This document shows positions 3,023-64,000 of a stretch of DNA of 64,000 nucleotides, piece by piece. Position 1 is the first letter of the stretch; each line of letters opens with the position of its first letter. The stretch spans positions 2,757,501-2,821,500 of the forward strand of contig NZ_AP025343.1 of NCBI RefSeq assembly GCF_021654775.1, written 5' to 3'. The DNA comes from Paenibacillus azoreducens (GTDB taxonomy: Bacteria; Bacillota; Bacilli; Paenibacillales; Paenibacillaceae). The position numbers were made by a program, and so were the translations under genes. The notes beneath the pieces are model-generated. The model was not told the DNA's origin, ran no database searches, and saw only the letters and a program-made list of their open reading frames with translations.

Positions 3023-3027
3023 CGCCC

Positions 3028-7440: not shown

Positions 7441-7479
7441 AGTAGAAGTAAAACTCCGGGGGAAACGCATCCTAATATC

Positions 7480-7546: not shown

Positions 7547-7589
7547 CATTGATAGATTAATTAAGCTGCTAAAAATAGGGGGAACAAGC

Positions 7590-8246
7590 ATGAAATCGGA
7601 GAAAATATCCGAAGCAGTTGTTCGCAGATTGCCTGTATATTTAAGATATTTGAGCGACTTGCATAAACGGGAGGTCGCTACGGTTTCCTCCCAGGAACTT
7701 GGTCAGAGACTCGACCTCAATCCGGCGCAGATCCGTAAGGATCTGGCTTATTTCGGCGATTTTGGCCGGAAAGGCATCGGATATGATGTTTCGTATCTGA
7801 TCGAAAAAATCCGCCACATCCTGAACCTGGATCAGCAGATCAACGCGGTGTTGGTCGGGGCAGGTAATTTGGGTCAAGCGCTTTCAAACTATAACTTTTA
7901 CCTGAAGGAAAACATTAAAATTATTGCCGTATTTGATGAAAATCCGAAGAAGATCGGCAAACAAATCAATACGCTGACCGTTCAGCCGATGGAGGAGCTC
8001 CGCGAAACGATCAAAGCCCGCAATATCCGTATCGGGATCATTACGGTACCGGATGTCGAAGCGCAAAATGTGGCCGATATCCTGATCGAAGCCGGCATCG
8101 AAGCGATCCTGAACTTCGCGCCGGTCATCTTGAAAGCACCTGCGAACATTCGGATTCATCCGGCGGATTTCACTACGGATCTGCTCAGTTTGGCTTATTA
8201 TTTGGATAACGGAAAGGACGATTCTGCTGATGACGGCGACAAATAG
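7590..8246 (+). CDS. rex: Redox-sensing transcriptional repressor Rex
   Basis: Rex binds operator DNA when NADH is low and releases it when NADH rises, controlling fermentation and respiration genes. The 218-residue protein has the N-terminal winged helix (about 1-80, with LGQRLDLNPAQIRKDLAYFG) and the C-terminal Rossmann domain with VGAGNLGQAL at about 89-98. A GGGGGAA ribosome site precedes the ATG. Its end overlaps the next gene by 17 bases. I saw no convincing Rex operator immediately upstream, so autoregulation is not supported from the sequence. Confidence 0.93.
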   Translation: MKSEKISEAVVRRLPVYLRYLSDLHKREVATVSSQELGQRLDLNPAQIRKDLAYFGDFGRKGIGYDVSYLIEKIRHILNLDQQINAVLVGAGNLGQALSNYNFYLKENIKIIAVFDENPKKIGKQINTLTVQPMEELRETIKARNIRIGIITVPDVEAQNVADILIEAGIEAILNFAPVILKAPANIRIHPADFTTDLLSLAYYLDNGKDDSADDGDK

Positions 8247-9534: not shown

Positions 9535-9554
9535 GAAAGGCTTAGAGGTAGCTT

Positions 9555-10097
9555 ATGCTTAGAATTAGAACAAGAAGAAATGTTTGGAAAAATAAAAAGA
9601 AATGGATTTTCCTTGCTATCGCAGTTTTTCTGCTGATCCTATTCGGACTTTACCGCTATTATATCTATGTAACGCAGGACATACGCGCAGAAGAAACCAC
9701 AGCCATTTTGAAAGCAAAGCAGGAGAGCGGGCTTGTCAAGGTAACCGAGTCATACAAGTCCGTCTGGGATAGCGTTTGCTGGGTGATCGAAGGTTTGGAT
9801 AAAGAGAATCGCCCTGTTATGGTTTGGGTTCGGATGGAAGGTGGAGGCAAGGTTAAAGCAGGCGAAGGAGCGGTTCATCAGGAATTGCTTGCCGATGGCA
9901 TGTCGGAAACGCAGATCAAGCAGAAGATTCAACAAGAAATGCCTGATGCGGACAAGATGAAGCTGACGCCGGGAATGTATAACGGGGAATATGTTTGGCA
10001 GCTGTTTTACCGCAGCAAAGATCATTATTACTATCAATTTTATCGTTTCCGCGACGGCAAAAGCATCGGAGGGCCATTTACGCTTCCAAACAGGTAA
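9555..10097 (+). CDS. ypmB: YpmB-like membrane-anchored protein (DUF5590)
   Basis: A 180-residue protein with a basic N-terminus (RIRTRRNVWKNKKKW), one transmembrane helix at about 17-35 and an extracytoplasmic domain. It resembles B. subtilis YpmB, which lies in the same dinG-asnS neighbourhood. The domain is of the DUF5590/PepSY-like type, with TPGMYNGEYVWQLFY near the end. Molecular role unknown. A good ribosome site (AGAGGTAG) precedes the ATG, 20 bases after the deaminase stop, consistent with a rex-mtaD-ypmB transcript. Confidence 0.75.
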   Translation: MLRIRTRRNVWKNKKKWIFLAIAVFLLILFGLYRYYIYVTQDIRAEETTAILKAKQESGLVKVTESYKSVWDSVCWVIEGLDKENRPVMVWVRMEGGGKVKAGEGAVHQELLADGMSETQIKQKIQQEMPDADKMKLTPGMYNGEYVWQLFYRSKDHYYYQFYRFRDGKSIGGPFTLPNR

Positions 10098-10619
10098 TCC
10101 GTTTTTCAACATCTCAGAAAGTATAAACTTCCGGGGTCCCCGCAAAGTAATCGGAATAAGCTTCAAAGGCTACACGTCACTTTGTGGGATTATTTTAGAT
10201 CAATGGATGTCTTCTCTTTTGCTAAAAACGTCCTAAAAAATGGAAGAACCTCATTGGAAAATGGGGTTCTTTGGCGTACACAGAATATAGTTTAATAATT
10301 TCATAACATTACCTTCGATATCGTATATACGATATGATATACTTCTTTATGTATTCAGTAGATATCATGGTTTTTGCGGCCAAAAGCTGCATTCACGTCA
10401 TTTCATGCAGATCATCAGGAGTTTCCAGTGATTTGTGCAGAGGGATTTGATCTTATATCTGCATGGGAGAAAACCGTTCACAAGCCTTGGCAACCATGTG
10501 CGGCAGCTGCTCTTTAAAAAGCTCTTTTTGCCGGAGTTGCCGTAAGAATAGATATAGAGACTCGAAGTTTTTAGAGTTGTTATAATATAGATTTTTCCAT
10601 TTGAGAGGAGGACATACAG
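10098..10619. other. Gap with repeat, hairpin and an orphan palindrome
   Basis: No gene is supported. 10127-10200 is a shortened copy of the GGGGTCCCCGCAAAG repeat. A hairpin with arms AAGAACC and GGTTCTT (10244-10271) may end the upstream transcript, although the T-run is weak. A perfect 18-bp palindrome ATATCGTATATACGATAT lies at 10318-10335 and looks like an operator, although no gene starts near it. TATAATATAG at 10581-10590 is a possible -10 for the next operon. Confidence 0.5.
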
Positions 10620-11144
10620 TTGAAACTGCGTCCAATACCAATTGTCATAACGGTTGTTGTATCGGCTGCGCTTCTGTTTGGCGGCTGGTTCTTTTATCGT
10701 CAGACCACCATGCAGGGGCCGCTTCAAAAGATCATCCAAAATTATAAAGGCGTAAACAGCGCTCAATTTGATATAAAACGCAATGAAATTGATTTGAAAC
10801 TCGACTTAAAACCGGATACGAATGTATCCGGGCTTGTTAACCGGATTACGACCGAAGGAAAATCCGTGATCGGCAGTCGCACATTAAAATTCGATTTCGT
10901 CGACCATTCCTCGGACAAGCTAAACCGCTATTGGGATTCCGCCATGTTCACAGTAGCTGAAGCCATGGACAATAAAAAATATACGGAAATAACGTCCAAG
11001 CTGCAGGAACTGGCCAAAGATACAGGCATCAAAATCCAAACGGAGATGGATACGAAAAACGTGTATATCAGCCTTAGCGAAGGCGACAACAGCAAGTTTA
11101 TCGTATTGCCCCGGGACCCCGGCAAGATTGGGGTGTGGGAATAA
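10620..11144 (+). CDS. Membrane-anchored protein of unknown function
   Basis: 174 residues, read from a TTG after GAGGAGG. One N-terminal transmembrane helix (about 6-24) is followed by an extracytoplasmic domain rich in charged beta-type segments, with no motif I recognise. The stop codon overlaps the start of the FtsH-like protease gene (TAATG), which suggests coupled translation and a shared membrane role, perhaps as an adaptor or substrate-gating partner. That role is inferred from position only. Confidence 0.7.
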   Translation: MKLRPIPIVITVVVSAALLFGGWFFYRQTTMQGPLQKIIQNYKGVNSAQFDIKRNEIDLKLDLKPDTNVSGLVNRITTEGKSVIGSRTLKFDFVDHSSDKLNRYWDSAMFTVAEAMDNKKYTEITSKLQELAKDTGIKIQTEMDTKNVYISLSEGDNSKFIVLPRDPGKIGVWE

Positions 11145-12646
11145 TGCCGAGATTGCTTAAAGAAATTTTGATTGGTTTTATTCCGGTACTCTTTATTTTT
11201 CTCGGATTTATTGGCATAAATGTCGTTCCGCTTGTTCTCATTGGGCTATTGGTCGGAGGGCTGCTGTTTTTGACCAATCTTCGCGGCGGCCTGGCGGTCG
11301 GCGCAGGTGCGGAGCGTAAACGGAAGAAAAAAGGGCTGAAAAAGCTGACTTTTGAACAGATCGGCGGGCAGGACAATGCGAAGCAAGAGCTGAGGGAGGC
11401 GCTGGATTTCCTGATCAAACATGAGGAGATCCGCCAGCTCGGCATTCGCCCGATTAAAGGGATCCTGCTGACCGGTCCTCCGGGTACAGGTAAAACGCTG
11501 ATGGCAAAAGCCGCGGCGCATTATACGGATTCCGTGTTTGTTGCTTCGTCGGGCAGCGAGTTTGTTGAAATGTACGTCGGCGTCGGCGCGGGACGCGTGC
11601 GCGAGTTATTTCGCGATGCACGCAACCGGGCGGCGAAGGAAAACAAACAAAGCGCGATTATTTTCATCGATGAAATCGATGTGATCGGCGGCAAGCGCGA
11701 AGGCGGGCAGCAGCGGGAGTATGACCAAACTTTGAATCAGCTGCTAACCGAGATGGACGGGATTTATTCTTCCGACAGCCCGCGGATTTTACTGATTGCG
11801 GCGACCAACCGGAAGGAAATGCTGGATAGCGCGCTGCTGCGTCCGGGACGTTTTGACCGTCATATTCAAGTGGATTTGCCTGACAAAAAAGGGCGCAAGC
11901 ATATTCTTGAGCTGCATGCCCAAAATAAGCCGCTTCATGCCGAAGCGAACCTAGAGAAAATCGCCGAGGAATCTTTCGGTTTCTCTGGGGCCCAACTGGA
12001 AAGCGTGATGAATGAGGCAGCCATTTATGCCATGCGCGAAGGTTTACAAGAAATAGAACAAAGACATTTGTCCATGTCTATAGACAAGGTAATGATGGGT
12101 GAGCGGACCGACCGCGAGTCTACGCTTGAAGAGAAAAAACGCGTGGCCATTCACGAACTGGGTCATGCGATCATGGCGGAACTTGTCCGTCCCGGCAGTG
12201 TAAGCCAGGTTGCGCTCAGCCCCCGCGGCAAAGCGCTTGGATATGTGCGCCATAACCCGCAACAGGAGCAATATTTATACACGAAAACATTCCTGGAAGA
12301 GCAAATTATGATCGCGCTCGGCGGAGCAGCCGCGGAGGAAATATTCTACGGCGGACGGAGCACCGGTTCAAGCAACGACTTTGAACAGGCGCTGAACATT
12401 GTGCAGACCATGATGAAATCCGGACTTACCTCCCTCGGTATTATGGATATGGACATGGTAACAAAAGAAGAGCTGATGAAAGAAAATCATGCGATTCTGG
12501 AAACCCTGATGAAACGAACGCGAACCATGCTTGAGGAGCGCCGGGTCATTTTTGAGCAATCCTTGGATATTCTACTGAAGGAAGAAACGTTGTCCGGAGA
12601 GCAATTTCGTTGTCTATTTCGTGAACATTCCCTTTTGCCAGCATAA
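11144..12646 (+). CDS. Short FtsH-like membrane AAA+ zinc metalloprotease
   Basis: 500 residues with two closely spaced N-terminal transmembrane helices (about 6-26 and 28-45) and almost no external loop, then a basic linker (RKRKKKGLKK). The AAA domain has Walker A GPPGTGKT near 112, Walker B IIFIDEID near 173 and the arginine-finger region RPGRFDRH. The M41 peptidase motif HELGH (about 337-341) and the downstream STGSSNDFEQA metal-ligand region are present. Canonical FtsH is longer (about 640 residues) with a large extracytoplasmic domain, so this is a compact paralogue rather than the housekeeping FtsH. The start is the ATG overlapping the previous stop. Confidence 0.85.
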   Translation: MPRLLKEILIGFIPVLFIFLGFIGINVVPLVLIGLLVGGLLFLTNLRGGLAVGAGAERKRKKKGLKKLTFEQIGGQDNAKQELREALDFLIKHEEIRQLGIRPIKGILLTGPPGTGKTLMAKAAAHYTDSVFVASSGSEFVEMYVGVGAGRVRELFRDARNRAAKENKQSAIIFIDEIDVIGGKREGGQQREYDQTLNQLLTEMDGIYSSDSPRILLIAATNRKEMLDSALLRPGRFDRHIQVDLPDKKGRKHILELHAQNKPLHAEANLEKIAEESFGFSGAQLESVMNEAAIYAMREGLQEIEQRHLSMSIDKVMMGERTDRESTLEEKKRVAIHELGHAIMAELVRPGSVSQVALSPRGKALGYVRHNPQQEQYLYTKTFLEEQIMIALGGAAAEEIFYGGRSTGSSNDFEQALNIVQTMMKSGLTSLGIMDMDMVTKEELMKENHAILETLMKRTRTMLEERRVIFEQSLDILLKEETLSGEQFRCLFREHSLLPA

Positions 12647-12670
12647 ATTGTGATGCTGGTTCTTTTTTTT
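12638..12670 (+). terminator. Rho-independent terminator of the FtsH-like operon
   Basis: Arms CCAGCAT and ATGCTGG around an 8-base loop, followed by TTCTTTTTTTT. The stop codon of the protease gene lies inside the hairpin. Confidence 0.9.
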
Positions 12671-12791
12671 TACTTTTTTGCTGTGCTAAGTTATTATTAT
12701 AGATTGGGTCACTATGTACTCACTTGCAGGACAGGCGATAAATGAGTACAGCACAGAATACAGATGGTGGCTATAGGAAGGTGGCAGAGAC

Positions 12792-13664
12792 ATGTACTTT
12801 AAAAAGATTGGCGTAATTGGCGGCGGAACGATGGGCCAAGGAATCGCTGAGATGTTGGCGACACGTGGGCTTGATGTTCTTCTGGTTGAGAAAACGCCGG
12901 AAAAACTTGATTACTCTTATTCCATGATCGAGCTTAGTCTGGATAAGCAGCTTGAAAAATGGGCGATTACCCAGGCGGAAAAAAAATTGATTTTGGGCAG
13001 AATCCAAAAAGTGGTGCATCTTGCGGAGCTTGGCGCCTGCGATATGGTCATTGAAACCATTTCCGAGGATCTTGAAGCGAAGAAGCAAGTATTCTCGCAG
13101 TTGGACCAGGTATGCCCTAACCATATTATTCTTGCCAGCAATACATCTTCACTCAGCTTGACCGAACTGGCCAGCTCGACAATGTATCCAGAACGCGTGA
13201 TCGGCATGCACTTTATCCATCCGGTAAGCAAAGTCGATCTGGTTGAAATCATCCGCGGCCTCAAAACATCCGAGACCACTTTTACGGAAACGAAACGTTT
13301 CGTTGAGGAAGTGGTGGATAAAAAAGGCGTCATGGTATATGAATCGCCCGGATTTGTATCGAGCCGGATGATTTGCTTAATGATTAACGAAGCGCTGCAT
13401 ATCCTTCAAGAGGGAGTGGCATCTGCGGAAGATATCGATGATGCCATGCGTATTGGATACCAGTTCCAGCATGGTCCGCTTGAGATGGCCGACCGCTTCG
13501 GACTGGATTCCGTACTTGCGGCTTTGGAGCGGATGTTCCGTGAATTTGGCGAATTGAAATACCGTCCGTCGACCGTGCTTAAGAAAATGGTACGAGCAGG
13601 GCATTTGGGCGTCAAAACGGGAGAAGGCTTCTTTAAGTATGACAAGGATGGTGACCGGATATGA
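12792..13664 (+). CDS. hbd: 3-hydroxybutyryl-CoA dehydrogenase
   Basis: An NAD(P)-dependent oxidoreductase of fatty-acid or butanoate metabolism that interconverts 3-hydroxyacyl-CoA and 3-oxoacyl-CoA. The 290 residues include the Rossmann motif GVIGGGTMGQGIAEM (about 7-21), the ASNTSSLS segment near 117 and the catalytic MHFIHPV near 140. The length matches single-domain Hbd enzymes. Its stop overlaps the acetate kinase start (ATGA), so the two are coupled, a pairing that suggests a role in acyl-CoA to acid conversion. Confidence 0.88.
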   Translation: MYFKKIGVIGGGTMGQGIAEMLATRGLDVLLVEKTPEKLDYSYSMIELSLDKQLEKWAITQAEKKLILGRIQKVVHLAELGACDMVIETISEDLEAKKQVFSQLDQVCPNHIILASNTSSLSLTELASSTMYPERVIGMHFIHPVSKVDLVEIIRGLKTSETTFTETKRFVEEVVDKKGVMVYESPGFVSSRMICLMINEALHILQEGVASAEDIDDAMRIGYQFQHGPLEMADRFGLDSVLAALERMFREFGELKYRPSTVLKKMVRAGHLGVKTGEGFFKYDKDGDRI

Positions 13665-14869
13665 AAATTCTAGTTATTAATGCTGGCAGTTCCTCATTGA
13701 AATACCAGCTTTACGATATGACAGACGAATCCGTATTGGCCAAAGGTTTGGTGGAGCGGATCGGAATGGATTCCTCTATTTTGACCCATAAACCGACCGG
13801 ACGCTCGGAAGTAACCGAAGTAAGCGAGATCCTGGAACATACAACCGCGATCCGTAAAGTATTGGCACTGCTTACGGACCCGGACCATGGCGTGATTGGG
13901 TCTGTTGACGAAATCGAAGCCGTTGGCCACCGCGTCGTTCATGGCGGCGAATTCTTCAGCGAGTCCGCGCTTGTGGACGGCGACGTGAAAAGCAAAATCC
14001 GTCAATTGTTCGACCTTGCTCCTCTTCACAACCCGGCATCGATGATGGGCATCAAGGCATCCGAAGCCAATATGCCAAACGTACCGCAGGTTGTCGTATT
14101 CGATACCGCATTCCACCAAACGATGCCGGAACATGCGTATTTGTATGCCATTCCGCGGGTACTCTACAAAAAGCACAAAGTAAGACGTTACGGTGCGCAC
14201 GGCACTTCGCATGATTTCGTCAGCAAGACAGCGGCGGAATTCCTGGACCGTCCGCTCGAAGACCTGAAAATCATCGTCTGCCATATCGGCAACGGCGCCA
14301 GCATCACGGCCGTAAAAGGCGGAGAATCGGTCGATACATCCATGGGCATGACTCCGCTCGAGGGCCTCATGATGGGAACGCGCAGCGGCGATTTGGACCC
14401 TGCCATCGTACCTTATGTCATGAACAAGGAAGAGCTGACCGTAAGCGAAGTAAACTCCATGTTGAACAAGCACAGCGGCCTGCTCGCGATTTCGGGCATC
14501 AGCAGCGATATGCGCGAAATTACGGAAGGCATGCAAAACGGCGATGCCAACTCGAAACTGGCGTTTGATATGTATGAATACCGTCTCCGCAAATACATCG
14601 GTTCCTATGCAGCGGCGATGAATGGCGTAGATGTGATTGCATTCACAGCAGGCGTAGGCGAGAATTCGGTTGTTTTACGGCAAAAAGTATGCGAAAATTT
14701 GACTTATCTGGGCGTTGAACTGGACGAGAAGCTTAATGAAGTTCGTTCAGGCGAACCGCGCCGTATTTCTTCGGCTAATTCCAAGGTTCAGGTACTGGTG
14801 ATTCCGACGAATGAAGAGCTTGTCATCGCGCGGGATACGCACCGTATCGTTCAGGGGTCGAAGTCGTAG
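13661..14869 (+). CDS. ackA: Acetate kinase
   Basis: AckA converts acetyl phosphate and ADP to acetate and ATP, or the reverse. The 402-residue length is standard. Signatures are VINAGSSSLKYQLYD at the N-terminus, GHRVVHGG near 89, HNPASMMGI near 120, GAHGTSHDFV near 180, HIGNGAS near 208 and TAGVGENS near 330. It is coupled to hbd by a 4-base overlap. No phosphotransacetylase gene is adjacent. Confidence 0.95.
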   Translation: MKILVINAGSSSLKYQLYDMTDESVLAKGLVERIGMDSSILTHKPTGRSEVTEVSEILEHTTAIRKVLALLTDPDHGVIGSVDEIEAVGHRVVHGGEFFSESALVDGDVKSKIRQLFDLAPLHNPASMMGIKASEANMPNVPQVVVFDTAFHQTMPEHAYLYAIPRVLYKKHKVRRYGAHGTSHDFVSKTAAEFLDRPLEDLKIIVCHIGNGASITAVKGGESVDTSMGMTPLEGLMMGTRSGDLDPAIVPYVMNKEELTVSEVNSMLNKHSGLLAISGISSDMREITEGMQNGDANSKLAFDMYEYRLRKYIGSYAAAMNGVDVIAFTAGVGENSVVLRQKVCENLTYLGVELDEKLNEVRSGEPRRISSANSKVQVLVIPTNEELVIARDTHRIVQGSKS

Positions 14870-14912
14870 ACTCTGAATTCAAAGCAAGTATTGCAAAGGG
14901 AGAGATTTAGGC

Positions 14913-16208
14913 ATGGCCACCAAAAGTGTGATTCGTGACGTGAATCAACATGTAGGAGAAACCGTAACGATCGGCAGCTGGATCCATAACAAGCGTTCCA
15001 GCGGAAAGATTCAGTTTTTGCAGCTGCGTGACGGAACCGGATATATTCAAGGCGTTGTTGTAAAAAACGAGGTTTCTGAACAATTGTGGGAAGACGCGAA
15101 AAGTTTGACTCAAGAAAGCTCGGTGTACGTTACGGGCGTCATTCGCGAAGAGCCGCGCAGCCAATCCGGTTACGAGATGACGGTAACGGGTATCGAGATC
15201 ATCCATTTGACCGAAAATTACCCGATTACACCGAAAGAGCATGGAGTCGACTTCCTGATGGATCATCGTCACTTGTGGCTTCGTGCGCCGAAGCAGCGCG
15301 CCATTCTGGTGATCCGCGGCGAAATCATCCGTGCCGTTCAGGAGTTTTTCGATCAAAACGGGTTCACACTGGTCGATCCGCCGATTTTGACGCCAACTTC
15401 CGCTGAAGGAACAACGAACTTGTTCCACACCAAATATTTTGATGAGGATGCTTATTTGACGCAAAGCGGCCAGCTTTATATGGAAGCGGCAGCGATGGCG
15501 CTCGGAAAAGTATATTCCTTCGGGCCGACGTTCCGCGCCGAAAAATCCAAAACGCGCCGCCACCTCATCGAATTTTGGATGATCGAGCCGGAAATGGCAT
15601 TTACCGATCATGAGGAAAGCCTTCAGATTCAAGAGCAGTTCGTTACCTATGTGGTTCAATCCGTCGTTAAGAAATGCAGAGCGGAACTGGAAACGCTCGG
15701 ACGCGATATTTCCAAGCTGGAAAATATCAAAGCTCCATTCCCGCGCATTACTTATGACGATGCCATCAAGTTCCTGCAAGAAGAAGGTTTCGACATTCCA
15801 TGGGGAGAAGACTTCGGCGCTCCGCATGAAACGGCCATTGCCGAAAAATACGATAAACCTGTATTTATCACGCATTATCCGGCCGCAATCAAAGCATTCT
15901 ACATGAAACCTCATCCGGACCGTCCGGAAGTTGTGCTGTGTGCGGATATGATCGCTCCGGAAGGTTATGGGGAAATCATCGGAGGCTCGCAACGTATCGA
16001 TGATCCGGCCCTGCTTGAGGAACGCTTCAAGGAACATAACTTGTCGATGGACACGTATCAGTGGTATATGGATCTGCGTACTTACGGCACCGTTCCGCAT
16101 TCCGGCTTTGGACTAGGCCTGGAACGTACGGTAGCCTGGATTTGCGGATTGGACCATGTCCGCGAAACGATTCCGTTCCCTCGTACTTTGTATCGTCTCT
16201 ACCCATAA
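14913..16208 (+). CDS. asnS: Asparaginyl-tRNA synthetase
   Basis: AsnRS charges tRNA-Asn in the cytoplasm. The 431-residue class IIb synthetase has the N-terminal OB-fold (about 1-110), [19 protein letters not shown] and [19 protein letters not shown] (motif 2), and motif 3 [15 protein letters not shown] near the C-terminus. A clear GGGAGAG ribosome site precedes the ATG. asnS-dnaD adjacency is conserved in Bacillales. Confidence 0.95.
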
Positions 16209-16228
16209 TATAAGGAGAGGTGAAGCTC

Positions 16229-16921
16229 ATGGACAGCGCAGGATGGAAGACATGGGCCGAGGGAGCTTCATCCGGTTTGGGAGCCGGCATGGCGGTTATT
16301 CCGTATGTGCTGCTTCGACATTACCGCAAGCTGAAGCTTAGCGATCAGGAGACGCTTTTATTGATCCATCTCATTTCCTTCAAGCAGGTGGAGCAAAAGG
16401 ATTTTCCGACGCTGGAAGAGTTGCAGGAGGTTACGGGAGCGTCAGCCCAGTCGATAGCGCAAAGCTTGCAGAAACTGCTGAAAGCAGGCTTGATCAGCAT
16501 CGACGAAGAGCTTGACGAACTGCGGAACATTCAGTATGAACGTTATAACCTGTCGGGTCTTTACGATAAACTGGGACGGTTGTTAGCGGCCCAGGAGAAG
16601 AACAGACCTTCCAGCCAATCACGGGACAAGCAGCAGCAAATGGATGGGCAGGAGGAAGGACATAATCTGTTCGTCGTGTTCGAGAAGGAATTCGGCCGGC
16701 CGCTGTCTCCGATGGAATGCGAGACGATTTCCGGCTGGATCGATCAGGACCGGTATCCGGAGGAACTGATCCGGATGGCGCTAAAGGAAGCCGTATTTGC
16801 CGGAAAGGTCCATTTCAGGTATATCGACCGGATACTGCTTGAATGGAGCCGGAACCGCGTCAAAACGGCCAACGATGCCAAAGCTTATACGCAACGATTC
16901 CGCTCAGGCGGACGAGCATAA
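16229..16921 (+). CDS. dnaD: Primosomal protein DnaD
   Basis: DnaD helps load the replicative helicase at oriC and at restarting forks in Firmicutes. The 230-residue protein has an N-terminal winged-helix domain (about 1-110, with LEELQEVTGASAQSIAQSLQKL) and a C-terminal DnaD/DnaB2 domain (about 145-220, starting FEKEFGRPLSPMECETISGW and ending near IDRILLEW). The ATG has good spacing from AAGGAGAGG; a GTG three codons upstream lies inside that site. Confidence 0.92.
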   Translation: MDSAGWKTWAEGASSGLGAGMAVIPYVLLRHYRKLKLSDQETLLLIHLISFKQVEQKDFPTLEELQEVTGASAQSIAQSLQKLLKAGLISIDEELDELRNIQYERYNLSGLYDKLGRLLAAQEKNRPSSQSRDKQQQMDGQEEGHNLFVVFEKEFGRPLSPMECETISGWIDQDRYPEELIRMALKEAVFAGKVHFRYIDRILLEWSRNRVKTANDAKAYTQRFRSGGRA

Positions 16922-16929
16922 ATTACACC

Positions 16930-16974
16930 AAAGCGTGTCTTTCCGGGGAGGTAGCCGGAGGACACGCTTTTTGT
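16930..16974 (+). terminator. Terminator after dnaD
   Basis: Arms AAGCGTGTC and GACACGCTT with a smaller CCGG-type inner stem, followed by TTTTT. Confidence 0.85.
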
Positions 16975-17062
16975 GGTAAAATACGAAGTGGGTTTAAACC
17001 ACAGATAGTTCAAAAATGAGTTCTGGAACACCATAGGGAGATTCCGCCGCCCGGCGGAATTA

Positions 17063-56169: not shown

Positions 56170-56590
56170 TTTGTGGTTCTGCTGTAGTGGTATTTTTGAT
56201 CCAATGTTCTCGAAATGCCCCTGGCATTTTTCTTCTTAAATCATTTTCTGCCGCCTTAACTAAACAGCCATATGATCATTGAACCTGTCCACCTGGAAAA
56301 CGCTTTAATAGTTGAGCATTAGTCTAGGAGGAGCTAAAATTAAAATTGCTATCGAAAATACCTAAATATTTTTTTGCAGTAGCCATTCGACATTGATTAT
56401 GTCTGAAACTATTTAATAGCTACAACAGTTTAAAGCTCGGAAAACGTAATATTATTGAATTAATTGCGGTTAGATCATAAAGGATGAACAGCACCGAAAG
56501 TATCGGGAGCTTGCAACGTCGAGTACGACGATTGTGAGCTCTTTTTGTTTTCCAATAATTAGGCTGCTGATATAATGAGAGGGTGGGAAC

Positions 56591-57701
56591 GTGAGTATAT
56601 GGGTATTTCGGAATGATGAGAGTTCCTTGTATGTTCGTTTTAAATATGATGAACAAATGGTGATGAAGATTCGAGAAATCCCAGGAAGGAAATGGGTCAG
56701 TGATAAAAAGATCTGGTTGATTCCATTTACAGCTGAGTCCATTCAACTGTTGCAAACTCTTTTTGAAGGAACGAAGATTTATGTTGATGCCGTGTTGATG
56801 GAGGAATGCGGCTTGTTTAATAATGAAGTTCACACGCAGGATCACATTCCAAGCTATTTATGAAATGAGTCGATAAAAAGTTCCTTGGTTCGTGCACTGC
56901 AGTTTCGAGGTTATAGTAAAAAAACGATAAAAGCTTATTGTAGTCAAGTCCATCGATTTCATACTTTTGTTCAGCAGCAAGATACTTGGATGGATCACGA
57001 AAAAATGATTCAGAGTTATTCATTACACTTGCTTCAGCGGAATTGTTCCCATTCCTATGTTAATCAAGCGATCAGCGCGATTAAATTCTATGCTCAGAAA
57101 GTACTATTGCAAGAGGGAACAGCATCTTATATACGCCCTAAGAAAGAAAAGAGGCTCCCGAACGTATTATCGATGAACGAAGTGATGATGATCTTAAGGG
57201 CGCTCAATAATATAAAACATCGTGCGATCCTATACCTTACATATTCATCAGGTTTACGGGTAGGGGAAGTCGTCCGATTAAAAATTCAAGACATTGATTT
57301 CGAGCGGAAAACGCTTCGAATTCATCAAGGTAAGGGGCGAAAGGATCGTATTACGTTATTATCCGATACAGCCATGGATATTGTTCAACCATATTTGCAA
57401 CAAGAAAAGCCTGAGAAATGGATGTTCCCAGGTCAACACCCAGATCGTCATATAACTGAAAGAACTGTTCAAAAAGTGTTTGAACAAGCACGTATTGCCT
57501 CTGGAATCCAGAAAAAGTTAGTATTCACGCCTTGCGACATTCATTTGCTACACATCTTTTGGAAGGAGGAATCGACATTCGCTTCATTCAAGAGTTGCTT
57601 GGTCATCAAAGTGTGCGCACCACTGAAAAATATACACATGTAAGTGTGAAGGACATAAGAAGAATTAAAGTCCGTTAGATCAGTTAGAAGGGGGAGATTG
57701 A
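56591..57701 (+). pseudogene. Tyrosine recombinase heading the cassette array (interrupted)
   Basis: A GTG-started reading of about 370 residues, broken in three places. Residues 1-90 (YVRFKYDEQMVMKIREIPGR, then KWVSDKKIWLIPF) look like the HARP-type K-x-W-x(5-7)-W-x-I-P domain fused to some recombinases. An in-frame TGA (56861) follows. Next comes a SAM-like core-binding domain and the catalytic domain: SSGLRVGEV (Arg), GKGRKDR (Lys), [15 protein letters not shown] (HxxR), [16 protein letters not shown] (His, Tyr). Reaching HALRH needs a -1 shift at AAAAAG (57511), and the typical end [10 protein letters not shown] needs one more base at 57667. The IntI-specific insertion before HxxR is absent. 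It reads toward the cassettes. Confidence 0.8.
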
Positions 57702-57727
57702 GCGGGAGGAGTCGTAAACATGGTTGG

Positions 57728-57804
57728 TGAAGGAGTATTCACGAAGTTCGTAAACACCTCTGGATGTGATATATTTCAGTAGTTCGTGAATAAGACGTTA
57801 GATG
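57728..57804 (+). other. attI-like recombination site
   Basis: Between recombinase and first cassette. It ends in CGTGAATAAGACGTTAGAT, the same right half (L' plus R' = GTTAGAT) as every attC here. On the left are GTATTCACGAA, an inverted copy of TTCGTGAATA, and a direct copy AAGTTCGTAAAC. The R'' box (TAAC) of attC is absent. A simple site with extra direct repeats and only one full core is what attI sites look like. The cut would be G57797^T57798. Confidence 0.7.
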
Positions 57805-57841
57805 AAATCGCACAAGTTCAAAGCCAAAAGGAGATACTTAA

Positions 57842-58525
57842 TTGATGGCAAACCCTCGTATTAATTCATTTATTACTGAATTCGATGATTATATTAAGAA
57901 TAAGTGTATTACTTGTGGGGAGATTGTAGATTTAAAGAATATGTTTTATTCAAGATATAAGAAAGAGCCACGAGTTGCTGAAGCAATTATCTATAGATGG
58001 TTCGCTCACTATTTGGGGATTGACGAACCTATCAAAAATGAACATAGGATAAAAGCTTTAACTTTAAGGCCCGAAAAAAAGTATGTTGGTAAAATTGGTA
58101 AACAGAACATTGATATATCAGTTCTTGAACAGGGACAGATCAAGTTAGGTATTTCAATAAAGATGCAAGGGACTACTCCAGCTTATCTAGATGGAGCTGA
58201 TTTTTATAATCCTATACTTATGAAAGAATATCGTGATTACATTGAAGTTAATGATAAAATACTGCAGCAAGCGCACGAAAATAAGACTAGAGTAAAAGTT
58301 CCAACTCTTCTTCAGGATTTTGCTAGGATCGATAATTTGCAATTGGACCCAAACAATAGATTTCAATCAGCCACTTTTATTTTTGATGCCATGAAAGATA
58401 AAGAAATATTCTGGGTTAGGGAATTTGAATCTAAGTACAACCACAAATACTTATTTCTTCTTAATAAGCCTAAAATGATATTTAAGGAATGGGTAGATAA
58501 TAATCTCGATTCAATAAGATATTAA
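57842..58525 (+). CDS. Cassette 1 protein, unknown
   Basis: 227 residues, from a TTG 8 bases after AAAGGAG (ATG is the next codon). A+T-rich. The middle (KIGKQNIDISVLEQGQIKLG, then ISIKMQGTTPAYLDGADFYN) has a beta-hairpin with Asp and Lys placed somewhat like a PD-(D/E)xK nuclease core, but the acidic residue before xK is replaced by Ser, so I do not assign nuclease activity. The cassette spans 57798-58719. Confidence 0.65.
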   Translation: MMANPRINSFITEFDDYIKNKCITCGEIVDLKNMFYSRYKKEPRVAEAIIYRWFAHYLGIDEPIKNEHRIKALTLRPEKKYVGKIGKQNIDISVLEQGQIKLGISIKMQGTTPAYLDGADFYNPILMKEYRDYIEVNDKILQQAHENKTRVKVPTLLQDFARIDNLQLDPNNRFQSATFIFDAMKDKEIFWVREFESKYNHKYLFLLNKPKMIFKEWVDNNLDSIRY

Positions 58526-58556
58526 TTTGTGGGCGTTTCAAGGAAGGTGCGACTAC

Positions 58557-58725
58557 AACTAACATTATATTCACGCTGCGGGCCGACTGTCGCCGTCCCT
58601 TGGTCCGCCAGGGGAGATTGGCAGGGAAGTGGAGTCAGGCGGACAACCCTGCAAACCTAACCGCCGTCGCGGCCGCCCCGTTGGGGCTTAAGGTTCTCGG
58701 GTTCGTGAATACGGGAACGTTATAT
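58557..58725 (+). other. attC-like site 1
   Basis: R'' AACTAAC, then L'' TATTCACG; right side L' CGTGAATA, CGGGAAC, R' GTTATAT. Inner stems: GGTCCGC / GCGGAC and AACCTAA / TTAAGGTT. 169 bases; cut G58719^T. Confidence 0.85.
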
Positions 58726-58773
58726 GAAATCCTCTAAAAGATTATACTAAACCAAAAGTTAAAGGAGAAATAA

Positions 58774-59394
58774 TTGTTGCCATCTTATTTTTCTATAGAG
58801 TTCTCGTTTCCCTATCACGCCTTAAATAATACATTTGTAAGAGACTTTTATTCATCATTATTTAGTAAATATCCTTATAAGTCAGGCTATTGGAATAGCG
58901 AAAGTAACACCTTAGATGAAATTATTACATGGAATCAAAAACATCTCGAGAACAAGTTTATTCTTGGCTATAATGAGCATGTCAGTAACAACTATAAGCA
59001 AATACTATTAACGAGTTACACATTTAGTGAGATACGACATTATTGGAACTATAGAAGGAACGAAATAAGTTGTTCACTTATTATTCCAGAATTTGATGTA
59101 TTAGCGGAAGTAGATACATGGAAGTTTAAAGCTAGTATGTTTCAGCAAATTGAAGACTTATGTAGACACTTATGGGAAGTAAGTCCGATATACATTTTAC
59201 AGTCATGTTTGGAAATGGATGGTGGACCGATAAGCACAAATAAATTAAAGGCTGGGGCACAACCTTCTATAAATCCTATTAGTATTCTTAAACAGGATAC
59301 GTTTGAGAAAATAAAAGGGTTAAAAAAATCGCTTGAAGTAACTAAGATAACAAGACAAGGAATAATGATAGTAGATAAAGAATTAATTGAATAA
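58774..59394 (+). CDS. Cassette 2 protein, unknown
   Basis: 206 residues from a TTG 9 bases after AAAGGAG. The protein is rich in aromatic residues (FSIEFSFPYHALNNTFVRDF; IRHYWNYRRNEISCSLIIPE) with a helical middle and a C-terminal KKSLEVTKITRQGIMIVDKE. No motif recognised. Cassette 58720-59579. Confidence 0.6.
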   Translation: MLPSYFSIEFSFPYHALNNTFVRDFYSSLFSKYPYKSGYWNSESNTLDEIITWNQKHLENKFILGYNEHVSNNYKQILLTSYTFSEIRHYWNYRRNEISCSLIIPEFDVLAEVDTWKFKASMFQQIEDLCRHLWEVSPIYILQSCLEMDGGPISTNKLKAGAQPSINPISILKQDTFEKIKGLKKSLEVTKITRQGIMIVDKELIE

Positions 59395-59424
59395 TTTGAT
59401 GCTACTCGATGAAGAGATGACTTC

Positions 59425-59585
59425 ACATAACAAAGTATTCAAGCTGCGGGCTTAACAGCCCTTGGTCTGCAGAGGATTTTCGAAGAAGAGGATTCAGCAG
59501 ACAACCCTGCACTGGCTAAGTCCATCGGACCCGGGGCTTACGCCTCTTAAGCCAGTGAGGGTTCGTGAATACGGGAACGTTAGAC
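59425..59585 (+). other. attC-like site 2
   Basis: R'' ACATAAC, L'' TATTCAAG; right side CGTGAATA, CGGGAAC, R' GTTAGAC. Inner stems: GGGC / GCCC, GGTCTGC / GCAGAC, CACTGGCTAAG / CTTAAGCCAGTG. 161 bases; cut G59579^T. Confidence 0.88.
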
Positions 59586-59595
59586 GAAATACCTA

Positions 59596-60042
59596 ATGGA
59601 GGAGGTGAAAATCATTGAAATCCAAATCATAAACACAAATCAATCAAACACTAAGATCCTACATATTAATGGTACCCTTGGATATTGGGTTGACTTTCGA
59701 CACTCTTTGGTTGAGGGAAGTTGTTATTTTATTCCGTATAATGACCAAAAAATAGAGTTATTGAAGAATTATTCAGTAGAGACATCTCAAGAAGAAGTAA
59801 TTAATATTACAAATTCAGATGCTATGGAATACTTAATCCAATACAATGCAGAGTTGGATTTATATAAAGCAATTGGTAATGTTAGTTTTATTAGTGATGA
59901 TGGAGAGTTAATAATAATTTCAGTTGAAGACATGCATTTCAGTTTTAGTAACGAGGACTATGATATTAGAAATATAAGAATAAATGATTGGATAAAGATC
60001 GAAATTAAGGGATTAACATTATGGGATGAGGGTATTTTCTAG
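59596..60042 (+). CDS. Cassette 3 protein, unknown
   Basis: 148 residues if the ATG is used. GGAGGAGG lies just inside this start, so a later ATT or GTG (59605-59614) may be the real one. Beta-rich and acidic (VSFISDDGELIIISVEDMHF; IRNIRINDWIKIEIKGLTLW); the fold might be OB- or Ig-like, but no family is recognised. Cassette 59580-60213. Confidence 0.55.
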   Translation: MEEVKIIEIQIINTNQSNTKILHINGTLGYWVDFRHSLVEGSCYFIPYNDQKIELLKNYSVETSQEEVINITNSDAMEYLIQYNAELDLYKAIGNVSFISDDGELIIISVEDMHFSFSNEDYDIRNIRINDWIKIEIKGLTLWDEGIF

Positions 60043-60057
60043 GGAGTCAGGTACTCC

Positions 60058-60219
60058 ATCTAACACCATATCACGCTGCGGAGCCTGGCGCTACTTGGTC
60101 TGCCGAGGCATTTCGGAGAAGTGGGTTCAGCAGACAAGCCCTGCGAGTCCAAGTCCGTCGGACCCGCCAGCTGAAGCTGGCTTAGGACTCTCGGCTTCGT
60201 GAATATACGAACGTTATAC
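60058..60219 (+). other. attC-like site 3
   Basis: R'' ATCTAAC, L'' TATCACG; right side CGTGAATA, TACGAAC, R' GTTATAC. Inner stems: AGC / GCT, GGTCTGC / GCAGAC, GAGTCC / GGACTC, plus CCAGC / GCTGG. 162 bases; cut G60213^T. Confidence 0.85.
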
Positions 60220-60257
60220 GAAAGATCACAAATGCTGATATTTTGAGAGGTGACTCA

Positions 60258-60737
60258 ATGAAGTTAGAGGCAGTTTTTGATGAGTCCGGTAGCTACAGAT
60301 ATTTGCTATCTCGTGTTTGGAATCCAACTTTGCCAAAGTTATTATATGTAATGTTGAATCCTAGTACAGCTGATAAGACAACTGAAGATCAAACTTCAAG
60401 ACAATGTATTTACTTTGCTAAGAAGTTCGGATTCGGATCATTTGAAGTTGTAAATCTTTACAGTTTAATATCGACAAATCCGAAAGGGCTTAGGACTTCT
60501 TCCATTGATCCTATAGGAAATGATAATGACTTATATATAACAGAAGCTGCTGCAAGGGCGGATCTAATAATTGTAGCTTGGGGAACTGACCATTTTTTTA
60601 ACAAAAGAAATGAAATCATAAGAAATAAATTAAAGGCAGATGGATATAAGCTCTTTTGCTTAAAGAAGACGAAATATGGACACCCTGGACATCCATCAAG
60701 ATTGAAACATGATATAGATCAACTAATAGAATTTTGA
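60258..60737 (+). CDS. Cassette 4 protein, DUF1643 family
   Basis: 159 residues from the ATG after GAGAGGTGA. DUF1643 signatures: RYLLSRVWNPTLPKLLYVML near 13, NPSTADKTTEDQTSRQC, VNLYSLISTNPKGL, IIVAWGTDH and GHPGHPSRL near the end. The family is common in phage and accessory DNA and its function is unknown. Cassette 60214-60942. The neighbouring cassette 5 encodes a distant paralogue. Confidence 0.85.
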   Translation: MKLEAVFDESGSYRYLLSRVWNPTLPKLLYVMLNPSTADKTTEDQTSRQCIYFAKKFGFGSFEVVNLYSLISTNPKGLRTSSIDPIGNDNDLYITEAAARADLIIVAWGTDHFFNKRNEIIRNKLKADGYKLFCLKKTKYGHPGHPSRLKHDIDQLIEF

Positions 60738-60764
60738 GAGTCATTTCAAGATGTGTGTTCCTTC

Positions 60765-60948
60765 GTATAACACCATATTCACGCATCGGGCATTCGCCCT
60801 CGGTCTGGCAGAAGTTAGAAGTGATTCGAAGAGGAATTTCAGTAGCAGGGTAGTAGAATCAGCCGGATACACCCGCACCACCTAACCGCATTGCGGCCGT
60901 CCTTCGGACTTAAGGTGGTGGGGCGTCGTGAATACAAGAACGTTATAT
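60765..60948 (+). other. attC-like site 4
   Basis: R'' GTATAAC, L'' TATTCACG; right side CGTGAATA, CAAGAAC, R' GTTATAT. Inner stems: GGGC / GCCC and CACCACCTAA / TTAAGGTGGTG. 184 bases, the longest; cut G60942^T. Confidence 0.87.
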
Positions 60949-61501
60949 GAAATGGCATAAAAAATATGATTATGGAGAGGTTACATTGGAAGCTGTAGGA
61001 ACGGTTGAGACCAAAGCTATATTTTCAGATAAAAATAGATATTATAGATATTACCTTGAGAGAAATTGGAAAACACCTAATTTAAAAACAGCAGCAATTA
61101 TTATGTTAAATCCAAGCTATGCAGATGAATTTAAACTAGATCTTTCAATTATGAAAGTTTCAAACATGCTTATTGATATGAATTATTGTTCTTTACGAGT
61201 AGTTAATTTGTTTGCATTCGTAGCAACAGAGCACTCTGCTCTTGTAAGTACAATAGGTAATACTGGAAAAACAAATGATGAATGGATAATCAAAGCCATT
61301 AAAAATGTTGATTTATTGATTATTGCATGGGGATCAGATGACAATAAATACAAAAATAGAAAACGTGAAGTTAAAGAAATTATAATGAAATTGCCATTAA
61401 AAGATAAACCTAAAAAGATTCAATGCTTTATTGATGAAGAAAATCGAAAAGGAAGACATCCAAGTAGATTAGGAGAGTTAAAACTCGTAGATTATTCGTA
61501 G
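60947..61501 (+). CDS. Cassette 5 protein, DUF1643 family
   Basis: 184 residues. It shares with cassette 4 the pattern YYLERNWKTPNLKTAAIIML, NPSYADEF, VVNLFAFVATE, LIIAWGSDDN and GRHPSRLGEL. The ATG lies inside the right attC core (GTTATATG), so translation starts at the recombination site itself and there is no conventional ribosome site. Expression would then depend on what is fused upstream. Alternatively a later start (for example GTG or TTG after GGAGAGG at 60973) is used. Cassette 60943-61676. Confidence 0.8.
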   Translation: MKWHKKYDYGEVTLEAVGTVETKAIFSDKNRYYRYYLERNWKTPNLKTAAIIMLNPSYADEFKLDLSIMKVSNMLIDMNYCSLRVVNLFAFVATEHSALVSTIGNTGKTNDEWIIKAIKNVDLLIIAWGSDDNKYKNRKREVKEIIMKLPLKDKPKKIQCFIDEENRKGRHPSRLGELKLVDYS

Positions 61502-61515
61502 AGGTATGTCACATC

Positions 61516-61682
61516 ACATAACATCATATCCACGCATCAGAGCCTGAAGGCTCCTCGGTCCGCCCGAGGATAATAGCAGGGAAGCGGGATCAGGCGGACA
61601 CATCCGCACCGACTAACCGCATCGCGGCCGCCCCTGACGGAGCTTAAGTCGGTGGGACGTCGTGGATACACGAACGTTATGT
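61516..61682 (+). other. attC-like site 5
   Basis: R'' ACATAAC, L'' TATCCACG paired with the altered L' CGTGGATA (a compensatory change), spacer CACGAAC, R' GTTATGT. Inner stems: GAGCC / GGCTC, GGTCCGC / GCGGAC, CACCGACTAA / TTAAGTCGGTG. 167 bases; cut G61676^T. Confidence 0.9.
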
Positions 61683-61726
61683 GACATTACAAAAGACTTA
61701 AAGAAAAGGATTTAGGAGGAAGAAAA

Positions 61727-62927
61727 ATGAAAGTTTTTTTTATGGATGAGAGCTTTAATACAGGGAACGATTGTAAAGAAGCATCTCAACCGTATTTTAC
61801 ATACGGTGGATGGTTAGTAGACGAAGAGAAATTACAAGATACTAGAAGCAGAGTTTTAGAATTTGCAAATAATCACCAAGGAGAGTTGAAATCCAAAAGC
61901 TTCGTTTCTTATAAAGGAATGAAAAAAAGTGATTAGTTTATCGGATAATTTAATAGAAAAAGAAGGAGCCATTCCTTTCTTTATTTGTTATGAAAAGAAA
62001 TACATGTTAGCTTGTGCAATCGTAGAGATATTTTTTGATCATAAAACAAATAAAAGGGTGAATGGTTATCTCACATTTCCAAATGAGCATGAGTACTTAC
62101 GTATAACGATACAGAAAGGCAATTTTACAACTTTGGAAATACATTCAGTACTGGCTTCTGATTATAAAACACCGCCAATAAAAGCTACTAAAAAGGGACT
62201 AGCTGAGATAATAAGTCAGGATGTTGATTTTTGTAATTATGTGGGGGATGTGATTAACGGAAAAATTCAAGATATACAGTGCGTTGATATTATAATTGAA
62301 AAGCTTCGAAATATATTTTTAACGTCAAATTTAAAAAATATAGCCAATATATTTGTGGCAAAAAATTTCGATAAAAAGACAATATACAAAGAATTAATGG
62401 GAACAGAGTTGGAAAATCAGAAAAAAAGAGTGAAAAAGTCTCTTTTAGTACAGCCATCAATTTTTGAAATTGTCCAAAACTTAAAAAATAAATATCCAAA
62501 TCTAAAAGTTGTAGTAGACACTTTAGGAGATCAAAATAACCAATTTTTAGAAATAGAATCATTATTAAAGGTTGATATACAAATTCAACATGACTCAAAA
62601 GCCGAGCCAATGATTATGGCTTCGGATCTTTTAATAGGTTATATAGCAAGAAATATTAGAGGGATATTAGAAGATAAAACAGAAGTTGAAACGAGTTTAC
62701 TAGCAAAGCTCCTTAAAAAGGATAGAAGTTTGTTTGAGGGAAGTGAATCATGGTGGTATTTAAAGTTCTCAGAAGGGAGTGGAGAAAACCTTATGAGAAA
62801 ATTGGAGATTCCCTTTGAAAAGACTGACTATTTACAAGTACTAACAACAAATTTTCATGAGTTTATAAAAAATTCTTCTGTTAAAAATAATTTCAGAAAG
62901 AAAAAAAAGAGAAAACGAAAAAATTAG
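61727..62927 (+). pseudogene. Cassette 6 gene, DUF3800-like, frameshifted at an A-run
   Basis: Two overlapping frames. The first (69 residues, MKVFFMDESFNTGNDCKEAS ... YFTYGGWLVDEE) has the xDES start of DUF3800 proteins. The second (332 residues) has VVVDTLGDQN, IQHDSKAEPMIMASDLLIGY and a Lys-rich tail, the C-terminal DUF3800 pattern. They join if the 7-A run at 61922 is read as 6 (a +1 shift). DUF3800 proteins are RNase H-like and often found near defence genes. It may be a real mutation, recoding by slippage, or a sequencing error. GGAGGAAG precedes the first ATG. Cassette 61677-63035. Confidence 0.75.
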
Positions 62928-62963
62928 ATTGAAAGAATTAATGACTAAAAAATAAGTAACGTC

Positions 62964-63041
62964 ACATAACATAATATTCACGCTGCGGGCATACGCCCTT
63001 GGCCCGACATGCGTCGGGTCGTGAATACGGGAACGTTAGGT
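62964..63041 (+). other. attC-like site 6 (short form)
   Basis: R'' ACATAAC, L'' TATTCACG; right side CGTGAATA, CGGGAAC, R' GTTAGGT. Only two small inner hairpins remain: GGGC-ATAC-GCCC and CCCGAC-ATGC-GTCGGG. 78 bases; cut G63035^T. It shows the minimal layout. Confidence 0.9.
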
Positions 63042-63071
63042 GAAATCTGTGTAAGGAGGGGAGGATTATTA

Positions 63072-63737
63072 ATGACATATAGCTATTTTGACACTTTTGA
63101 TGAAAAACTTAAAAACATAATCGAAATTGGATCAAAACATTATGATGAAGCCTGTATACTAATATTTGTTTATCTTGATTTCTTAAGTAATTTCGTGGAA
63201 AAACCACACTCTTCAAACAATGCAAGATTCAATGGATCAAACTTTAGATACTTTTTGCTACACTATTCACATTTTCAAGACACATTAAAATATATTCAAG
63301 TTGACAAATTCATTAATGATTTCTCAAAAGGTAGAATAAGTAAGGATGAATACCAAAAATATTATGACAAGATAGAGAGAAAACTCGAAAGAGTTAAGAA
63401 TGGAGTAGAGCTTCCGATATCATCGTTTATCAGTTTGGATAATGTTGATTCAGAACACAAAGAATATTTTCAGAAGATTACATTGTTTAACTTGATTTAT
63501 AGTTTAAGAAACTCGGCAGTGCATGGTTATAATAACCTAATAGAAGCAGGAAGTGAACTTTCAGAGCCTTTTCTCTCGTATACCTGGAATATAGAAGAAG
63601 GAAATGAAGGATGGTTCACTACATATATACCTTTTGATTTCATGTATAGGATGGTTGATAATTGTTATTCAAAAGTTAGAGAGGAATACGGTAGTTTAGT
63701 TGAAAGATTTTTCGAGGAAGACACAGACATCACCTAA
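63072..63737 (+). CDS. Cassette 7 protein, HEPN-like
   Basis: 221 residues, all-helical, from the ATG after GGAGGGGAGG. LIYSLRNSAVHGYNNL near 141-156 contains the Rx4-6H motif (R146, H151) of HEPN domains, in the typical RN...AVHG form. HEPN proteins are ribonucleases in toxin-antitoxin, abortive-infection and CRISPR systems. No partner antitoxin is in the cassette. The stop codon TAA lies inside the R'' box of attC 7. Cassette 63036-63847. Confidence 0.7.
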   Translation: MTYSYFDTFDEKLKNIIEIGSKHYDEACILIFVYLDFLSNFVEKPHSSNNARFNGSNFRYFLLHYSHFQDTLKYIQVDKFINDFSKGRISKDEYQKYYDKIERKLERVKNGVELPISSFISLDNVDSEHKEYFQKITLFNLIYSLRNSAVHGYNNLIEAGSELSEPFLSYTWNIEEGNEGWFTTYIPFDFMYRMVDNCYSKVREEYGSLVERFFEEDTDIT

Positions 63738-63853
63738 CATAGTATTCTAGCTGCGGCTCCTTTGGAGACTTGGTCTGCGGGAAGGGTTTCGAAGAGGCAT
63801 TTCAGCAGACACATCCGACTTCGTCGGACGTCGTGAATACGGAAACGTTAGGT
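63732..63853 (+). other. attC-like site 7
   Basis: R'' ACCTAAC, L'' TATTCTAG; right side CGTGAATA, CGGAAAC, R' GTTAGGT. Inner stems: CTCC / GGAG, GGTCTGC / GCAGAC, CCGAC / GTCGG. 122 bases; cut G63847^T. Confidence 0.88.
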
Positions 63854-63858
63854 GAAAT

Positions 63859-63996
63859 ATGGACATGAAAATCACAACTATAAGTTCTAGAATACGGATA
63901 AAACAATACAAGACTCTCAACAGGATAAAGCCAAAGATGGAATTTATTGAAGGGAAAGTGAGGGCTTATGTCGAAATGTATCGGATATTAGAATAG
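63859..63996 (+). CDS. Cassette 8, small ORF (cassette incomplete)
   Basis: A 45-codon frame, MDMKITTISSRIRIKQYKTL then NRIKPKMEFIEGKVRAYVEM, starting 11 bases after the attC 7 cut. Basic and without recognisable motif. No ribosome site. The cassette runs past the window, so its main gene may lie further right. Confidence 0.3.
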   Translation: MDMKITTISSRIRIKQYKTLNRIKPKMEFIEGKVRAYVEMYRILE

Positions 63997-64000
63997 AGTT

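Follow-up and report, generated by a model that had tools for sequence, protein, structure and literature searches.

The DNA analysed here (the window, 64,000 nucleotides in full, G000:C1:2757501-2821500) belongs to the genome of Paenibacillus azoreducens, which consists of one contig of 7.3 Mb, and carries near its right end the gene of a tyrosine recombinase, an attI-like site and the beginning of an array of gene cassettes with attC-like sites (Table 1). The array extends over 22.5 kb, and 23 attC-like sites were located in it by motif and visual inspection; the window shows its first seven cassettes. It ends at G000:C1:2837757 with a terminal right half that has no left half there. An earlier sequence-only reading had described an integron-like gene-cassette array, and the recombinase frames, the attI-like site, the seven complete cassettes and the start of an eighth are all present where it placed them. 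Comparison of anatomy, of pairing and covariation in the sites, of unit edges, of varying surroundings and of linkage to a recombinase family makes it very probable that the array represents a chromosomal cassette-capture system, integron-like in its working and run by a different recombinase lineage outside IntI.

The attC-like sites recur more often than chance would allow: CGTGAATACGGGAACGTTA, with up to three mismatches, has 27 matches in the whole genome, against one for the pattern read backwards. Close matches to it fall nearly all in three clusters (the window array, 1.19-1.20 Mb and 6.00 Mb), and repeats spread across the genome outside a cassette context were not found. The 1.19-Mb cluster is headed by a second attI core (locus L011, G000:C1:1189287 onward), identical to that of the window and followed by its own cassettes; no recombinase homologue was found near the 1.19-Mb and the 6.0-Mb clusters. 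The cassettes are indeed richer in A+T, their open reading frames (ORFs) having a G+C content of 0.29-0.34 versus 0.469 in window positions 1-56000. Two other claims of the sequence-only reading hold in part. Of the boxes RYYYAAC and GTTRRRY that bound attC in integrons, AAC and GTT are retained, while the strict GTTRRRY form is present at four of the eight cassette starts in the window, the commonest form being GTTA-N3-G; and single-gene cassettes are the general anatomy, except for cassette 6, where two overlapping ORFs are perhaps one gene split by a frameshift. A strict end-pairing scan (11 of 12) was passed by two of the seven window cassettes, by nothing in window positions 1-56000 and in none of 10 block shuffles of the 40-kb array. 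The ends of cassette 7 are complementary over 18 nt except for a 2-nt internal loop. Rfam searches returned nothing at E<=1 in window positions 56500-64000 and nothing at gathering scores in three 20-kb loci.

Table 1. Features of the cassette array in the window. Positions are those of the 64,000-nucleotide stretch; cassettes are given from their first G, and each complete cassette includes its own attC-like site.
Feature	Position	Strand	Remarks
Recombinase N-terminal domain, weakly HARP-like	56591..56863	+	90-aa frame, ended by in-frame TGA; fused to recombinase in relatives
Recombinase catalytic part, SAM-like and Phage_integrase domains	56885..57643	+	252-aa frame; frameshift at about 57510; homologues in relatives
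Inverted arm-like repeat, possible accessory sites	57735..57758	.	Upstream of attI core; similar elements precede attI in several relatives
attI-like core, 4-nt arm spacer	57782..57800	+	Cassette 1 next; identical core at G000:C1:1189287-1189305
Cassette 1	57797..58718	+	ORF 57842-58525, without Pfam match
attC-like site 1	58557..58725	+	
Cassette 2	58719..59578	+	ORF 58774-59394, without Pfam match
attC-like site 2	59425..59585	+	
Cassette 3	59579..60212	+	ORF 59596-60042, nothing above Pfam cut-off
attC-like site 3	60058..60219	+	
Cassette 4	60213..60941	+	ORF 60243-60737, DUF1643; both ends pair
attC-like site 4	60765..60948	+	
Cassette 5	60942..61675	+	ORF 60947-61501, DUF1643
attC-like site 5	61516..61682	+	
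Cassette 6	61676..63034	+	ORFs 61727-61936 (weak DUF3800 hit under the cut-off) and 61929-62927, which overlap
attC-like site 6, short form, 78 nt	62964..63041	+	
Cassette 7	63035..63846	+	ORF within 63009-63737, without Pfam match
attC-like site 7	63732..63853	+	
Cassette 8, start	63847..64000	+	Extends past window to about G000:C1:2823473

The attC-like sites are about 65-250 nt long. Their left arm has the form TAAC-N4-TATTCACG, with a spacer of 4 nt in 184 of the 212 exact arm pairs, and their right arm the form CGTGAATA-N7-GTTA, in which the spacer is 7 nt long in 163 of 192 cases and 8 nt in 24; two or more hairpins lie between the arms. Covariation was examined in an alignment of 47 sites of exactly 98 nt, taken from 73 distinct short sites. 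Five helices, named by us from the consensus (R, L and three hairpins), are paired in 95.2% of the cells of this alignment and show changes on both sides in 12 of their 30 pairs, while 27-37% remain paired when the partners are shifted by 1-3 columns. An independent consensus folding returned 23 pairs, 11 of them with changes on both sides, the R stem not being included. The L stem is 96% paired and free of bulges in these 47 sites, the asymmetry lying in the 4- versus 7-nt spacer, and the extrahelical bases placed on one side of the folded canonical attC by the relevant passage of PMC3053210 are absent from the 98-nt sites, the length class examined. The predicted fold is a cloverleaf whose L stem is paired throughout, an architecture that bears out the earlier remark that the site is unlike the textbook attC. 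In folding with DNA parameters, the bottom strand is predicted to be the more stable one for 225 of the 325 sites (mean 1.05 kcal/mol).

A further regularity links the two ends of each cassette. In 314 cassettes from 30 loci, the start (from GTT) was compared with the reverse complement of the end (to AAC). Agreement within cassettes at positions 4-6, 8 and 11-16, none of which was used in the detection of the ends, is 72-90%, versus 31-79% after shuffling of the ends within a genome (z 9-20); it amounts to 49% at position 17 (27% shuffled) and 3% at position 10, and stops at position 18. The 23 cassettes of the window array with eye-pinned ends show the same, with 3.17 versus 2.10 of 4 positions in agreement (0 of 20000 permutations). 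Each cassette thus has a private outer stem of 6-7 bp, its two ends being complementary over two stems, of about 9 bp and 6-7 bp, around a 2-nt internal loop. As both outer arms meet only in the circle, the circle form of the attC is predicted to be more stable than the array form in 235 of 263 cases (5 equal, 23 less), with a mean gain of 7.07 kcal/mol versus -0.3 in a random-start control.

Movement of cassettes was assessed with homologous cassette pairs, defined as having at least 65% nucleotide identity over half or more of the cassette and belonging to different genomes. Direct comparison of the flanks of 37 such pairs, with identities up to 99.8%, finds the upstream neighbour homologous in none of the 37 and the downstream neighbour in one of the 27 testable pairs. 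One cassette is common to the window genome, G032 and G182, which represent three genera, at 96.8-98.2% identity. For the 21 start-anchored pairs, identity rises from 0.48 on the upstream side of the conserved arm to 1.0 within AACGTTA and stands at 0.86 from +4 to +19; for the nine end-anchored pairs, each of one attC type, it holds at 0.94 as far as +3 and drops to 0.48 beyond. A looser set for the edges holds 25 start and 9 end pairs, and both cassette edges are exact in the G086/G120 pair. Identity is switched on and off inside AACGTTA, which, as read from these alignments, is the exchange geometry of integrons, and genome comparison indicates that gene-plus-attC cassettes move as units with exchange at GTT.

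The attI-like site behaves similarly. Near-identical attI sequences in the genus g7 are followed by different first-cassette starts, so that relatives carry different genes at the same sites; gene order varies and no fixed block was found. The term integron-like, as used in the sequence-only reading, is therefore apt for the anatomy as well as for the behaviour across genomes. The first cassette start was located by end pairing (at least 9 of 11) at 24 of 27 loci, 68-254 nt behind the recombinase stop codon, which places attI next to the recombinase gene as in integrons; the same search gave 4 hits in 54 shuffled or reversed controls and none at 28 other window anchors, and G177, G060 and G078 reach 7-8. 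A single attI sequence motif fitted 6 of the 27 loci only, because attI differs between genera, and the pairing-based search took its place.

Recombinase homologues (E<=1e-40) were identified in 69 of 197 Paenibacillaceae genomes and the site pattern (up to one mismatch) at least once in 139 of them. Sites are present in all 69 homologue-positive genomes (two with a single match) versus 70 of the remaining 128 (Fisher p 5e-14). The DNA around 28 homologues, most of which lie on long contigs, was collected, and attC-like sites occur near the recombinase in all 27 pieces that were scanned, the piece left out being 3 kb long. The sites lie downstream on the recombinase strand at 26 loci and on the opposite strand at one, that of a 37%-identical relative in G182. 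They are also present at two loci found by name, in P. dokdonensis (L022) and Paenibacillus sp. EZ-K15 (L023), and the best 120 of 7998 named homologues include Paenibacillus polymyxa, Saccharibacillus, Cohnella and Gorillibacterium. A search of 398 Bacilli genomes at E<=1e-60 gave matches in 29, 10 of them outside Paenibacillaceae; six of the 11 loci from these 10 genomes contain cassette-end pairs (doubtful in G277), with none in reversed controls. Viral contigs hold no exact match to CGTGAATACRRGAACGTTA. One attC-like site has no phage match and one plasmid match (Cohnella), and another has no plasmid match.

The system is thus common rather than rare in Paenibacillaceae, a point to be added to the sequence-only reading, which took such arrays for rare in Firmicutes. 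These counts stand against published ones: as quoted from PMC9024848, integrons are extremely rare in Firmicutes, IntegronFinder 2.0 giving one complete integron and a few clusters of attC sites lacking integrases (CALIN). Firmicutes appear among the phyla with integrons in an excerpt of the review PMC8618304. Standard searches may miss the arrays, given a recombinase other than IntI and sites of a different kind.

Several further observations concern the range of the sites. The genomes G110, G185 and G196 have 37 to 68 site matches and no recombinase homologue at E<=1e-40. A 174-kb plasmid of Cohnella herbarum (L120, NZ_CP051681.1) carries 14 right-half sites of the same new type at about 2757-17050; no recombinase is annotated in the 28 kb read, for which the gene table is incomplete, and the genes include RelE/ParE family toxins and NUDIX. 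A Chryseobacterium plasmid (L086, NZ_CP041688.1) encodes at 7980-16870 a recombinase relative, with 41% identity over nearly its full length, followed by four almost invariant elements of about 190 nt, whose sequences part immediately behind GTTA or ATTA and which are separated by different genes; this may be an integron-like array of Bacteroidota.

The tyrosine recombinase recognised in the window by the sequence-only reading is present, but its reading frame is broken by the in-frame TGA at 56861-56863 and the frameshift near 57510, after which the C-terminal coding sequence continues in another frame to about 57678. The window array is therefore at present probably fixed or served in trans. 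Intact relatives exist (such as P0018 and P0038), and long open frames are intact in many genomes. The extra N-terminal domain, fused to the recombinase in relatives, may be weakly akin to HARP, as PF07443 matches 8 of 66 full-length relatives at E<=0.01, the best at 24.9 bits versus a cut-off of 25; the full-model fold search barely probes this domain. IntI-family integrases reportedly possess a unique additional domain, described by Messier and Roy in 2001. The array recombinases lack the IntI insertion of about 40 residues, their catalytic interval being 61-63 aa versus 102-103 in IntI and 62 in XerA, and TIGR02249 scores below its cut-off. Phylogenetic trees, one of them rooted with a single XerA segment as outgroup, place the array recombinases in a clade apart from IntI and apart from the window genome's own Xer-type proteins (a naming of ours), and group them with those of other Bacilli families with support of 88/81; their order relative to Bacteroidota, TnpF and IS91-linked integrases is not fixed by the tree. 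Judged by its sequence, the recombinase is outside the IntI family, lacking the domain by which that family is defined. Related tyrosine recombinases at L092 11063-11842, L093 6067-6942 and L090 1504-2169 branch near the array clade without resolution and adjoin IS91 family transposases or tet(X3) (tnpF).

The longest cassette ORF lies on the array strand in 272 of 306 cases (median 175 aa), and 8 of 314 cassettes have no ORF of 50 aa. Pfam was searched with 132 of 278 extracted cassette proteins, most opposite-strand ORFs being left out; the best 25 of 70 families include GNAT (7), NUDIX (4), DUF1643 (4), TIR (2), Cthe_2314-like HEPN (2), Cass2 (2) and AbiH (1). The best 25 of 198 PADLOC matches are mostly single ones, such as DRT and TIR types. 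The arrays appear as a reservoir of genes that are unknown or resemble defence genes (DRT, TIR, AbiH, HEPN).

The following mechanism is proposed. The recombinase, with its N-terminal domain and Xer/IntI-type catalytic core, would recognise a folded single strand of the attC-like site, presumably the bottom one, through a fold made up of the R stem, an asymmetric 4/7-nt bulge, the L stem and then two or three hairpins. Where the recombinase is active, strand exchange inside AAC-GTTA with the attI-like site beside its gene would lead to integration, and exchange with another attC to excision, as a circle, of a cassette consisting of a gene and the attC behind it. The full folded site would form only in the excised circle, the outer arms around an inserted site being those of different cassettes and unmatched, so that integration should be favoured over re-excision; this may explain how cassettes are retained in arrays. 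A broader proposal, on which we are evenly divided, is that integron function evolved a second time, in a HARP-Xer lineage independent of IntI and without the single-strand-processing domain of IntI, with a cloverleaf attC of its own and a self-complementary end 'lock' by which circles integrate readily and inserted cassettes are hard to excise; related systems may reach other Bacilli families and Bacteroidota plasmids. Integron-style gene collecting may have a separate Gram-positive version.

Several points weigh against the main interpretation, that of an integron-like cassette-capture system outside IntI. All evidence is comparative, and the recombinase is broken in the window and incomplete in near relatives as well (L022 P. 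dokdonensis and G094). Site finding was motif-based and missed lone half-sites and diverged sites, and the set of cassette ends keeps some mis-called ones, among them one or more starts of the window array. The top strand is predicted to be more stable in 97 of 325 sites, and end-stem mismatches show no preference for either strand (122 bottom-wobble versus 105 top-wobble), so that wobble asymmetry as a test of the strand gave no answer. The pairs used for the edges were chosen for identity on one side of the edge, and the G147/G099 pair, from one genus, has a common downstream neighbour. Seventeen of the 139 site-positive genomes have one match, and the backward pattern gives a similar yield (18 matches, spread over 17 genomes); in 70 genomes the site pattern matches once or more although no homologue reaches E<=1e-40. 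No sites were found at the distant loci L024 and L025, nor at L021, with 0.6 kb of downstream DNA only, and no cassette-end pairs at 5 of the 11 non-Paenibacillaceae loci, one just 3 kb long.

Some of these points feature in other explanations. The recombinase might act on double-stranded sites in the manner of Xer/dif, with hairpins that are incidental or serve at the RNA level; the missing IntI insertion, the XerA-like catalytic interval, the mismatches without strand bias and the constant L'-R' arm, which could be a double-strand site, all agree with this. However, a double-strand reaction would have no obvious need of covarying helices or of cassette-specific end complementarity, the end stem is complete in the circle alone, and pairing at the RNA level must bridge a median of about 650 nt of transcript, so that we regard this explanation as unlikely. 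That the array is a canonical integron which entered Bacillota with a diverged IntI is improbable; this explanation would account for the shared anatomy and AAC/GTT boxes and would have to accommodate a recombinase clade apart from IntI. A degenerate relic, in which dispersed repeats have genes between them and capture has ended, is suggested by the broken recombinases and by the two site clusters of the window genome without a nearby homologue, but is very improbable in view of the near-identical cassettes shared among three genera, the intact frames in many genomes and the maintained end pairing.

The proposed cassette-capture system resembles canonical integrons in having a tyrosine recombinase beside attI, an array of gene-plus-attC cassettes, AAC/GTT end boxes, exchange inside AAC-GTT, unequal arms in the folded site and mostly unknown genes, and Pfam Cass2 'integron-associated' proteins occur in 2 of the 132 scanned cassettes. 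It differs from them in its recombinase, which lies outside the IntI clade, lacks the IntI-specific insertion, has an added N-terminal domain and is read in the cassette direction at 26 of 27 loci, and in its cloverleaf attC, in which the L stem is paired throughout and the spacers measure 4 and 7 nt. The additional cassette-specific outer stem may be a further difference, the control tried for canonical attC (G857, a Bacillota genome with canonical IntI) having too few sites. Xer recombinases act on dif, and Xer/dif modules have short dif-type sites, a housekeeping Xer pair and no dedicated recombinase alongside; here, in contrast, a dedicated recombinase is linked to folded sites of about 65-250 nt. 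CTXphi integration, in the account available from PMC4792948, likewise employs Xer-type recombinases without an IntI-type domain on a folded single strand, but without cassettes, attI or a recombinase of its own. The same source, as excerpted, ties single-strand cassette recombination to the IntI-specific domain, which Xer recombinases lack; a widespread system without this domain bears directly on that link and offers a natural test of what the domain and the extrahelical bases are needed for. The Treponema chromosomal integrons share an integrase transcribed toward attI, in the cassette direction, and are described, in the relevant part of PMC3607928, as intI integrons, unlike the present arrays. 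No published description of the array system was found in open-licence PMC full text. The clusters without a neighbouring recombinase, at the second attI of the window genome and on the Cohnella herbarum plasmid, are comparable to CALIN, though with sites of a new type, and some of the Firmicutes CALIN reported in the excerpted PMC9024848 could belong to the array system described here.

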